Below, in pieces: positions 25,639-52,715 of a stretch of 64,000 nucleotides of DNA; position 1 is the stretch's first letter, and every line of letters starts with the position of its first letter. Made by a program: the position numbers and the translations under genes. This DNA is from an uncultured Alphaproteobacteria bacterium (GTDB lineage Bacteria > Pseudomonadota > Alphaproteobacteria > Micropepsales > Micropepsaceae). Location of the stretch: positions 1-64,000 of the forward strand of contig CADECX010000008.1 of NCBI GenBank assembly GCA_902825865.1, given 5' to 3'. The notes below the pieces were generated by a model. The model saw only the letters and a list, made by a program, of their open reading frames with translations, did no database searches and was not told the origin of the DNA.

Positions 25639-26853
25639 TTATGCACCTTCCAGCGGTAGAACATCGACCATCGCACCGGCGGTCAGCTCCGGGGCATTGG
25701 CCGGCAAACGGATCAGGGCATTGGCCGCGGCAAAGATCGAGATCAGAGAGGAATCCTGATCCTCGAAGGCACGCACGATTTGCCGCCCTTCCCCATCCAC
25801 CTCCAGCCGGGCCCGCAGATAATGTTCGCGCGGACCATTGGCGGGAAGACCTTGCGTCAGCCGCGCGCGATATGTGGCGACACATTGCAGGGGATCGCGC
25901 CCCAGCATGGCTTCCATCAAGGGTCGCAGAAACAAGGCGGCGCAGGCCAGCGCCGAGGCGGGATTGCCGGGAAGCCCCAGCACCAGGCCTTGGCTCGTCT
26001 TGCCGAACCAGGTCGGCTTGCCGGGCCGCACCGCGATTTTTTCCACCGCCAAGCTGAGCCCCAACCGCATCAGGGCCGGCCGCGCATAATCATGATCGCC
26101 GACCGAGGCGCCGCCGATCACCACCAACAAGTCGCTGGCGCTGAGGCCCTCTTCCGCCGCGCGCGCAATGGCGCCGACATCGTCTTTCTCCACCGCCAGG
26201 CGATTGGCTATTCCGCCCCAGGTCTGGATCAAGCCCGCAATGCCGAAGGTGCCGGAGTCGAATATCTGATAGGGATTGGGCGGCGATCCAGGCGCCGCCA
26301 GTTCGTCGCCGCTGCTGAGGATTGCGATGCGCGGCGCGCGCGCGACAGGCACTTGCGCCATGCCCGATGCCGCCGCCAGGGACAGCGCCACGCCGTCAAG
26401 CCTGCGTCCGGCGGAAAGCAAGACCGTGCCTGCGGTGAAATCGCAGCCGCGCGGCCGGATATTTTTGCCCGCGGCGGTCGCGGGAACAGTGATGCCGTCG
26501 CCATCGCGCCGGACATCTTCCTGGATGACGACGGTATCGGCGCCATCGGGCATCGCCGCGCCGGTGGAAATGCGCACCGCCGTGCCCGCCTCGCAATGTC
26601 CTTCAAAACCATGTCCGGCGGAGGATTCCCCGATCAAGCGCAGATTGCCCGGCGTGTCGCCGCTGCGCACGGCATAGCCATCCATTGCCGATGCCGCAAA
26701 AGGCGGCTGATCGCGGACGGCGACGATGTCCTGTGTCAGCACACGCCCGAGCGCGCTCTGCAGCGGTACAGTTTCCGCCGCCAAGGGACGCATAAGCGCA
26801 AGCATCGCCGCGCGCGCTTCCGTGACGGAGAAAATATCCCTTCTAGCGTTCAC
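25639..26853 (-). CDS. moeA: Molybdopterin molybdotransferase MoeA
   Basis: 404 aa. Inserts molybdate into adenylylated molybdopterin to give the active cofactor. Recognisable stretches are SAMDGYAVRSGD near 52-63, GADTVVIQEDV near 105, the GGASVGDHDY motif of the MogA-like domain near 241-250, and GLPGNPASALAC near 293. It overlaps moaC by 11 bases, so the two are coupled. The MOT1-type gene follows 94 bases later with its own regulatory box. Confidence 0.95.
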   Translation of the reverse strand: MNARRDIFSVTEARAAMLALMRPLAAETVPLQSALGRVLTQDIVAVRDQPPFAASAMDGYAVRSGDTPGNLRLIGESSAGHGFEGHCEAGTAVRISTGAAMPDGADTVVIQEDVRRDGDGITVPATAAGKNIRPRGCDFTAGTVLLSAGRRLDGVALSLAAASGMAQVPVARAPRIAILSSGDELAAPGSPPNPYQIFDSGTFGIAGLIQTWGGIANRLAVEKDDVGAIARAAEEGLSASDLLVVIGGASVGDHDYARPALMRLGLSLAVEKIAVRPGKPTWFGKTSQGLVLGLPGNPASALACAALFLRPLMEAMLGRDPLQCVATYRARLTQGLPANGPREHYLRARLEVDGEGRQIVRAFEDQDSSLISIFAAANALIRLPANAPELTAGAMVDVLPLEGA

Positions 26854-27322
26854 GGCGATAATCGCCCGAAGCCCCGCCGCTTTTTTCCAGCAAGGTGATG
26901 CCTTCGATCACCATGGCGCGATCCGAGGCTTTGAGCATGTCGTAGATGGTGAGGCAGGCGACCGACACTGCCGTCAGCGCCTCCATCTCCACGCCCGTCT
27001 GCCCGCTGGTCCTGGCGCGCGCCGTCACCGTCAAGGCATTGGCTTTCTTGTCGGCACCGATCTCGAGTTTGATGCTGCTGAGCGCAATCGGGTGACAGAG
27101 CGGGATCAGTTCGGCGGTGCGTTTGGCCGCCATCACCCCGGCGAATTCGGCTGCCGCGCGCACACTGCCTTTTTTGGAATCGCCGTCCAGCGCCTTGCGG
27201 AAGGTCTTGGCATTCATCCGCACCCGGCCCTCGGCCACCGCCTCGCGCGCGGCTACGGGTTTGCCGCCCACATCCACCATGCGGGCCTGACCCTTTTTAT
27301 CCAGATGGGTGAGTTTGCCCAC
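26843..27322 (-). CDS. moaC: Cyclic pyranopterin monophosphate synthase MoaC
   Basis: 159 aa. Converts 3',8-cyclo-GTP from MoaA to cyclic pyranopterin monophosphate. All family motifs are present: LTHLDKKGQARMVDVG at the N terminus, AAKRTAELIPLCHPIALS, GVEMEALTAVSVACLTIYDM and the DRAMVIEGITLLEKSGG end. The start is GTG at 27322. Immediately upstream, separated by only two bases, is the end of a hairpin element (27325-27400), so the region that should hold the ribosome site belongs to the element; only a GGGA about 9 bases upstream remains. Confidence 0.95.
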   Translation of the reverse strand: MGKLTHLDKKGQARMVDVGGKPVAAREAVAEGRVRMNAKTFRKALDGDSKKGSVRAAAEFAGVMAAKRTAELIPLCHPIALSSIKLEIGADKKANALTVTARARTSGQTGVEMEALTAVSVACLTIYDMLKASDRAMVIEGITLLEKSGGASGDYRRER

Positions 27323-27324
27323 CG

Positions 27325-27400
27325 CTAGTGTCCCGATTCCGAAATTCGCATGATCTCCATATCAGGCTCCGGGCGAATTTCGGAATCGTAAGGACACTAG
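27325..27400. repeat. Palindromic element 1 (MITE-like hairpin), CTAGTGTC ends
   Basis: 76-base near-palindrome between moaC and moaB. Left arm 27325-27349 and right arm 27373-27400 pair over 25 bases, with a 3-base bulge (TTA on the complementary reading). The loop is 23 bases. Ends are CTAGTGTCC and GGACACTAG. It is a diverged relative, in opposite orientation, of element 2 (27415-27491). CTAG at both ends suits insertion into a CTAG target, as used by IS630- and IS5-type transposons (inference). Confidence 0.8.
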
Positions 27401-27414
27401 CAATTTATTGATTC

Positions 27415-27491
27415 CTAGTGTCGTTTTAGTTTTGAAGTTCGCCTACAGCTTTATATCAGTGATATTGCGAACTTCAAAACCACGACACTAG
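27415..27491. repeat. Palindromic element 2 (MITE-like hairpin), CTAGTGTC ends
   Basis: 77-base near-palindrome 14 bases from element 1. Left arm 27415-27442 (28 bases) pairs with right arm 27467-27491 (25 bases), again with a 3-base length difference but on the other arm, so it is inverted relative to element 1. Ends are CTAGTGTCG and CGACACTAG; the inner stem ends in GAAGTTCGC where element 1 has GAAATTCGC. The final CTAG supplies the stop codon (TAG) of moaB. Confidence 0.8.
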
Positions 27492-28039
27492 ACCTCCGTG
27501 AAACGCGAGATCAGTTCCGACAGATTGCAGGGCTTGTGACGGCTGTCGAGTTGCCAGCGGATCAGCCTGTCCCAGCCATCCTTGCAGGCGCCATTGGAGC
27601 CCGGCAAGGCAAAGATCAAGGTCCCTTCGGTCAGCCCGGCGCAAGCCCGGCTCTGCATGGTGGAAAGACCGACCGATTGAAAGCTGGTCATGTGCCAGAC
27701 CGTCTCGAAACCTTCGATGGTCTTGTCAAACAGGGGCCGCAGCGCTTCCGGGGTGACATCGCGCCCCGTGAGGCCGGTGCCGCCGGTGGTGATCACCACA
27801 TCGACTTCCGGATCGGCGATCCATTTTTTCACCTGGGCCTGAACCTCCGCGACCTTGTCCTTCACGATCTTGCGCGCCGCCAAAACATGACCGTCGCGCG
27901 TTACCCGTTCGGCCAAAAGCTTGCCCGATGTGTCGCTGCTTTCATCGCGCGTGTCGGAAACCGTCAGCACCGCGATGCGCAGCGGGCGGAAAGGAATCGC
28001 CGGATCCAGCTTGCCGCCGCCGGGAGGAGCGTCACTCAT
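27488..28039 (-). CDS. moaB: Molybdenum cofactor protein MoaB/MogA
   Basis: 183 aa, MoaB/MogA fold, which adenylylates molybdopterin before MoeA inserts molybdate. The signature [15 protein letters not shown] near 100-114 and the [14 protein letters not shown] segment near 149 are intact. The start follows the moaE stop directly. The stop codon lies within the end of palindromic element 2, so the natural 3' end may have been altered by insertion, though the protein looks complete. Confidence 0.93.
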
Positions 28040-52557: not shown

Positions 52558-52584
52558 CGCTGCTGTGAACTAACTAGCTCAACT

Positions 52585-52672
52585 CTCCATGGGCGGGCTT
52601 GACCCGCCCATCCAGGGCGATTGATACCGTCTTTGCGGCTCTGGATGGCCGGCTCAAGGCCGGCCATGGAGA
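52585..52672. repeat. REP-like inverted hairpin doublet (REPIN-like)
   Basis: Two 23-base hairpins in opposite orientation between convergent genes: ATGGGCGGG/CCCGCCCAT (52589-52611, loop CTTGA) and ATGGCCGGC/GCCGGCCAT (52645-52667, loop TCAAG). Flanks are also mirrored: TCTCC...CCAG outside and after the first, CTGG...GGAGA before and after the second. Likely also acts as a two-way transcription end. Confidence 0.75.
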
Positions 52673-52715
52673 AGAGGAAAAAAACCTCTCGATCCGAAAC
52701 GGCTTGGGCCTGAGG

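Follow-up and report, generated by a model that had tools for sequence, protein, structure and literature searches.

Two long hairpins lie between moaB and moaC in the moa operon of an uncultured alphaproteobacterium, raising the question of whether they form an RNA structure that serves the operon or arrived there as mobile DNA. A first-pass annotation of the sequence had entertained both possibilities. Our window is the 64,000-nucleotide stretch of DNA analyzed here, which lies on contig C8 of a 3.77-Mb draft genome in 154 contigs (G000). Pfam searches assign the genes neighboring the hairpins to MoaE, MoaB, MoaC, MoeA and a ThiS/MoaD-like protein.

The hairpins between moaB and moaC

The first hairpin, E1, spans positions 27325-27400 (76 nt) and the second, E2, positions 27415-27491 (77 nt), with 14 nt between them. 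Both have CTAGTGTC ends and an inner GAA(A/G)TTCGC box, and in each the two arms differ in length by 3 nt. On either strand each has an RNA fold energy between -34 and -41 kcal/mol and a z-score between -7.9 and -9.2, and none of 200 shuffled sequences folds as well. These are the two hairpins of 76 and 77 bases that the first-pass annotation had described, with the common ends, inner box and arm asymmetry that it had noted, and the coordinates and Pfam-confirmed genes agree with its placing of them head-to-head, 14 bases apart, across the whole gap. E1, the spacer and E2 occupy this gap completely: the right-hand CTAG contains the TAG stop of moaB, and the GTG start of moaC lies 2 nt past the left-hand CTAG. 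The features of the locus are as follows, with A and B denoting the two hairpin types described below.

26843-27322, minus strand: moaC (PF01967, 175.8 bits), with 2 nt between its GTG start and the unit
27325-27491, minus strand (A to B direction): whole double-hairpin unit, made up of a 163-bp insertion and one retained CTAG, from empty sites in six congeners and a length match in G048
27325-27400, plus strand: B-type hairpin, outer to inner, with outer arm 27325-27349, loop 27350-27372, inner arm 27373-27400 and three extra bases 27389-27391
27325-27349, plus strand: outer IS630-like terminal repeat with GANTC, CTAGTGTCCCGATTCCGAAATTCGC, matching the G029 ends and the G047 right end at 20 of 25 positions
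27325-27328: left CTAG boundary, whose TA (27326-27327) we take as the first copy of the duplicated target
27335-27339: GANTC (CcrM methylation motif) in the B outer arm
27383-27387: GANTC in the B inner arm
27401-27414, minus strand: conserved spacer, GAATCAATAAATTG on that strand (family GAATCAATAARTTG)
27410-27414: GANTC in the spacer
27415-27491, minus strand: A-type hairpin, outer to inner, with outer arm 27467-27491, loop 27443-27466, inner arm 27415-27442 and three extra bases within about 27424-27428
27467-27491, minus strand: outer IS630-like terminal repeat without GANTC, CTAGTGTCGTGGTTTTGAAGTTCGC; the consensus A arm matches the G029 IS630 ends at 19 of 25 positions
27488-27491: right CTAG boundary, holding the moaB stop TAG (minus strand), with TA 27489-27490 read as the second copy
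27488-28039, minus strand: moaB (PF00994, 108.1 bits)
27492-27497, minus strand: GGAGGT, a Shine-Dalgarno-like site that the unit now separates from the start of moaC, judged from its sequence and the arrangement in congeners

The assembly contains two more moaB-like genes (G000:C115:220-759 and G000:C70:8137-8649; protein identity 83% and 53%), one of which sits on a 4.4-kb contig and is either a paralog or a contaminant. Elsewhere in the window, positions 52570-52690 hold an unrelated long imperfect hairpin that adjoins a CTAG (CTCTCCATGGGCGGGC...GGCCGGCCATGGAGAAGAGG).

A single insertion unit targeting CTAG

A pattern search identified eight perfect-ended hairpins in the genome and none in a reversed control, and a covariance model built from these eight returned 35 hits on the two strands, corresponding to about 19 hairpins at about ten places. 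Each complete place shows the same arrangement: an A-type hairpin with a CTAGTGTCGTGGTTTCGAAGTTCGC arm, a spacer of approximately GAATCAATAARTTG, and an opposite-facing B-type hairpin with a CTAGTGTCCCGATTCCGAAATTCGC arm. The two hairpins face each other across the 14-bp spacer, with their extra 2-4 bases toward it. The unit is short (163 bp inserted), dispersed, and carries neither genes nor a transposase. A sequence-blind search for this architecture in all fetched loci, which overlap one another, found 103 neighboring hairpin pairs with spacer lengths sharply peaked at 12-14 nt, and in 45 of 49 distinct units both hairpins have their longer arm on the spacer side.

For six of the copies in our genome, including the one between moaB and moaC, we identified orthologous sites in congeners that lack the unit. 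At moaB-moaC it is absent from six congeners, in which the moaB stop overlaps, touches or closely precedes the moaC start; removing 163 bp from our sequence so that one CTAG is left yields 26 nt, the same length as in the closest congener, G048. The insertion target is CTAG, which is present at the exact point in G048 for the copy on contig C45 and in G056 for the copy on contig C3. A further copy, on contig C23 (L031, about 2012-2176), interrupts a terminator-like inverted repeat, AAAGGCCGG..CCGGCCTTT, at its loop. The first-pass annotation had recommended a genome-wide hairpin search and a comparison with empty sites, and had held that a lack of other copies in the genome, together with identical elements at this site in distant relatives, would speak for an RNA structure; about ten units and six empty sites were found instead.

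Given the empty sites and the constant pairing of A with B, the pair is a single insertion unit, not the two independent elements first proposed. Similarly, it is true that the stems of E1 and E2 differ while keeping their pairing, but change private to this site is not the main cause: two fixed types recur in every complete unit of the genome, so what sets E1 apart from E2 is what sets B apart from A.

In our family, the length of the insertion alone fits a duplication of TA or of CTAG equally well. A sister family in G033 and G039 (L047, L048, L058, L059) has the same spacer and asymmetry and CTAAAGC...GCTTTAG ends, and each of these two genomes lacks the other's copies. Because the sister-family ends, C-TA-AAGC..GCTT-TA-G, contain no direct 4-bp repeat, and because the relative G026 has TTAG where one copy starts T-TA-AAGC, the duplication is best read, if not decisively, as TA at a C-TA-G target. 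Tenzen and Ohtsubo reportedly described in 1991 a preference for TA in CTAG. In the IS630-family element ISY100, two helix-turn-helix motifs bind the ends, and the element inserts into TA with TA duplication (PMC2170065). We also considered a 9-bp direct repeat at the G033 copy L058 as a target duplication and rejected it, reading it as a local duplication since lengths vary there among relatives and G026 has TTAG.

The family is carried by 15 of 60 congeners, with hairpin counts per genome that run from one or two to over 40. A scan for the A core in one genome per species (84,980 species) found 56 loci, almost all of them in MAGs of alphaproteobacteria, while blastn against PLSDB plasmids found no relative of the element and IMG/VR viral contigs gave no exact core match. 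UBA1303 (G058) contains near-identical copies, extra hairpin types C and D, and nested units that share one CTAG. Its loci L090-L094 are arrays of A, B, C and D hairpins linked by common CTAGs and nested in one another, and at L146 it has a separate hairpin family, CTAGAGCATTTC..GAAATGCTCTAG. In G031, single chimeric hairpins (L064, L073, L075) join the outer half of A to the outer half of B without spacer or extra bases, and are probable internal deletions. Among the matches listed in a comparison of flanks between genomes, a single insertion is clearly shared, by G008 and G045 upstream of lysA. Several Bradyrhizobium genomes and a record labeled 'Frankia sp. RB7' have one hairpin with a GTTTCGAAGTTCG core, unpaired and without CTAG ends, seemingly at a single orthologous position that lies upstream of a gene for a chemoreceptor-like protein (L099, L112, L114, L128, L130, L134, L135, L143).

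IS630 transposon ends and GANTC sites

Among the DDE_3 (PF13358) genes of the genus, we identified two kinds of transposon with ends starting CTAGTGTC: G047 has one of 1182 bp, of which we checked two copies, and G028 and G029 have one of 1217 bp. The encoded transposases are 64% identical to each other and score 275 and 267 bits against the NCBIfam IS630 model (cut-off 100). The consensus arms of our family match the 25-bp ends of these transposons at 17-20 positions; in a chance control, 4 of 200,000 random strings of CTAG plus 21 nt scored at least 19. Among 595 records of plasmid IS630 relatives, an IS630 end from a Roseomonas mucosa plasmid (CTAGTGTCCCGAATCCGAAGTTCGC) agrees at 24 of 25 positions with the B arm (CCAGTGTCCCGAATCCGAAGTTCGC) of another copy in our genome, C8:71939-72103 (C8b). 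Apart from this copy, the agreement with IS ends falls short of near-identity, which weighs against the IS630 link. IS630 was one of the groups in which the first-pass annotation had suggested seeking a transposase with matching ends, and transposons from both congeners and plasmids match. The CTAGTGTC and GAARTTCGC boxes are common to A, B and these IS630 ends; since every hairpin arm carries the terminal and internal boxes of IS630 repeats, the unit has four transposon ends. The ends of the G047 and G029 elements do not fold into such hairpins.

Neither our genome nor 21 other carriers, mostly drafts, yielded a complete transposase of this IS630 group; G044 has a fragment. Draft genomes often lose multi-copy IS. 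Because most carriers are drafts and the source need not persist in each of them, the missing cognate transposase, usual but not obligatory for a MITE, weighs against this assignment without excluding it; the source may be gone from the carriers. A search around solitary hairpins for an autonomous element flanked by full hairpins found none. A link to IS481, an element said to target CTAG, was considered from the spacer and rejected: the spacer (27401-27414) and its homologs resemble GATTCAATAGGTTG, which we take to be part of an IS481 end, possibly by chance, and five full IS630 copies contain no spacer-like stretch except for one weak match.

The two outer arms of the unit differ in GANTC, the methylation site of CcrM. 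Most B outer arms have the site, as GATTC or GAATC, the A outer arm has none, and exactly one outer arm bears the site in 34 of 49 units. Among IS630s with both ends found, exactly one end has GANTC in 10 of 12 from alphaproteobacteria versus none of six from other classes (Fisher p 0.0015, a value that ignores relatedness and concerns a pattern spotted before counting). The A and B outer ends mirror the two unequal ends of the IS630. Moreover, GANTC is about nine-fold denser in the units of our genome than in their flanks (15.1 versus 1.7 per kb), and the spacer contains it in 24 of 49 units, compared with 7.5% of shuffled spacers. Dam methylation gates the transposition of IS10 and IS50; by analogy, GANTC methylation by CcrM may couple transposition of the unit to DNA replication.

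Stem matching, probable origin and probable effect on moaC

The stems are nearly perfect while the loops vary widely. In 16 hairpins of our genome compared with their type consensus, we counted 37 compensated and 3 uncompensated changes, with changes within one divergent copy counted singly; in the wider set the ratio is inflated because the hairpin finder demands good pairing. Compensatory change, as first reported, is genuine between copies of one type. The conclusion drawn from it, that the hairpin itself is selected, does not follow, since DNA template switching can also yield double, pairing-restoring changes (PMC8794818) and G.T mismatches are not in excess. Stem mismatches in 91 hairpins (2294 pairs) comprise nine GT, eleven AC and twelve others; selection on RNA would be expected to give an excess of wobble pairs, and its absence makes hairpin-templated DNA correction a live alternative to selection. 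Template switching also predicts loss of the extra bases, as in the rare A hairpins that lack them (L111, L139, L141). At the shared lysA insertion, two apparently in-place compensated changes are accompanied by several uncompensated ones. Hairpin-templated DNA correction and selection for transposition both fit the matching of the stems.

Overall, the feature is very probably one copy of a MITE moved, now or formerly, by an IS630-family (Tc1/mariner superfamily) transposase, with mobility judged from the distribution of copies. A non-autonomous element inserting at CTAG had been one of the two initial suggestions, and the ten or so copies, six empty sites and matching IS630 ends bear it out. 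RUP of Streptococcus pneumoniae, a 107-bp MITE mobilized by IS630-Spn1, is likewise gene-less, with IS630-like ends and TA insertion (PMC2229807), whereas our unit has four IS-like ends in two hairpins, a conserved spacer and alphaproteobacterial hosts. The Correia/NEMIS elements of Neisseria are also MITEs with TA ends, hairpin potential and many copies (PMC2229807), but their stem-loop forms by pairing of the 5' and 3' ends, without two arms and a linker, and their end sequence is different. Members of the IS630 group such as ISMex18 share CTAG-GTGTC or CTAG-GTGGC-like ends and an internal GAAGTT box with the unit; unlike it, they carry a transposase gene, and the G047 and G029 ends form no such hairpins.

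Three other explanations must be weighed against an IS630-mobilized MITE. One is a structured RNA specific to the moa operon and fixed by selection as a processing, stability or translation signal. The great stability of the hairpins, their covariation and their position speak for it, and RNase III might act on such hairpins in transcripts, a proposal already made for NEMIS (reviewed in PMC2229807). However, six congeners lack the unit at moaB-moaC, the double-hairpin unit also occurs at unrelated genes, the stem mismatches show no wobble excess, and an Rfam search returned only microRNA models far under their gathering scores. The RNA processing signal raised in the first-pass annotation therefore has no positive evidence, with no relevant Rfam family and with congeners lacking it here, and we consider such an RNA highly improbable. 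We put just as little weight on a REPIN-like inverted pair of palindromes, which a RAYT transposase (Y1 tyrosine type) would mobilize by acting on hairpins in single-stranded form. REPINs and REP dimers do resemble the unit in their two inverted hairpins, conserved spacers, heterodimers and dispersed intergenic positions (PMC3116915, PMC3733652), and one RAYT gene is present in each of two high-copy genomes, G049 and G058. Yet our genome, G031, G070, G072, G073 and G075 have no RAYT, the non-carriers G002 and G016 do, and the RAYT loci checked have no such hairpins within a few kb, the one in G049 being flanked by another repeat. Moreover, REP stems span 5-13 bp and have unpaired tags, with a RAYT partner for the GTAG types, whereas the unit has stems of about 25 bp with CTAG paired inside them and no unpaired GTAG or CGTC tag; its match to IS630 ends largely refutes this origin.

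The third explanation, which we regard as unlikely if less so than these two, is a domesticated intergenic repeat of the CIR type, linked to CcrM, held in place and no longer moving. CIR repeats of Caulobacter and Brucella, compared here by description, share with the unit their alphaproteobacterial hosts, two inverted-repeat arms with a linker, and conserved GANTC, which is enriched in our units; the mechanism of their mobility is described as unknown (PMC2229807). They differ in length (about 110 bp versus about 163 bp) and in carrying GANTC at the terminal loop rather than in the spacer and B stem. The unit shared upstream of lysA by G008 and G045, with its apparent in-situ compensated changes, would suit a repeat held in place, but this copy also shows several uncompensated changes, all six tested copies in our genome have empty sites, G058 has near-identical recent copies, and the ends match IS630.

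In the IS630-mobilized MITE that we favor, the transposase would bind the outer A and B ends as the pair in use, excise the unit by cutting at the flanking TA, and integrate it at the TA within a different CTAG, with duplication of that dinucleotide. Inverted duplication of each end could have produced the facing arms, which would stay matched through hairpin-templated DNA correction, selection for transposition, or both. CcrM methylation of GANTC may gate transposition in step with replication. We raise tentatively, and with more doubt than belief, the broader possibility that there is a class of CcrM-gated four-ended IS630 MITEs, perhaps including the Caulobacter CIR repeats, that are passengers whose stems are kept by hairpin-templated DNA correction.

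An IS630-type MITE is in itself ordinary; what is unusual here is the arrangement of four ends as two hairpins, the conserved spacer and the one-sided methylation site. The four-ended double-hairpin form looks new among IS630-mobilized MITEs, and our analysis connects a structured repeat of intergenic DNA with a specific family of transposases. It also provides a hypothesis for the presence of GANTC in alphaproteobacterial intergenic repeats, namely that the site sits in a transposon end. The units form a natural set of hairpins in which DNA correction and selection can be tested as sources of compensatory change, and they warn against taking covariation as proof of a functional RNA. For the moa operon itself, the element puts 163 bp between two genes that overlap or touch in congeners. 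Since GGAGGT has been moved 163 nt from the GTG and the former stop-start overlap is gone, the insertion probably weakens the translational coupling of moaC.
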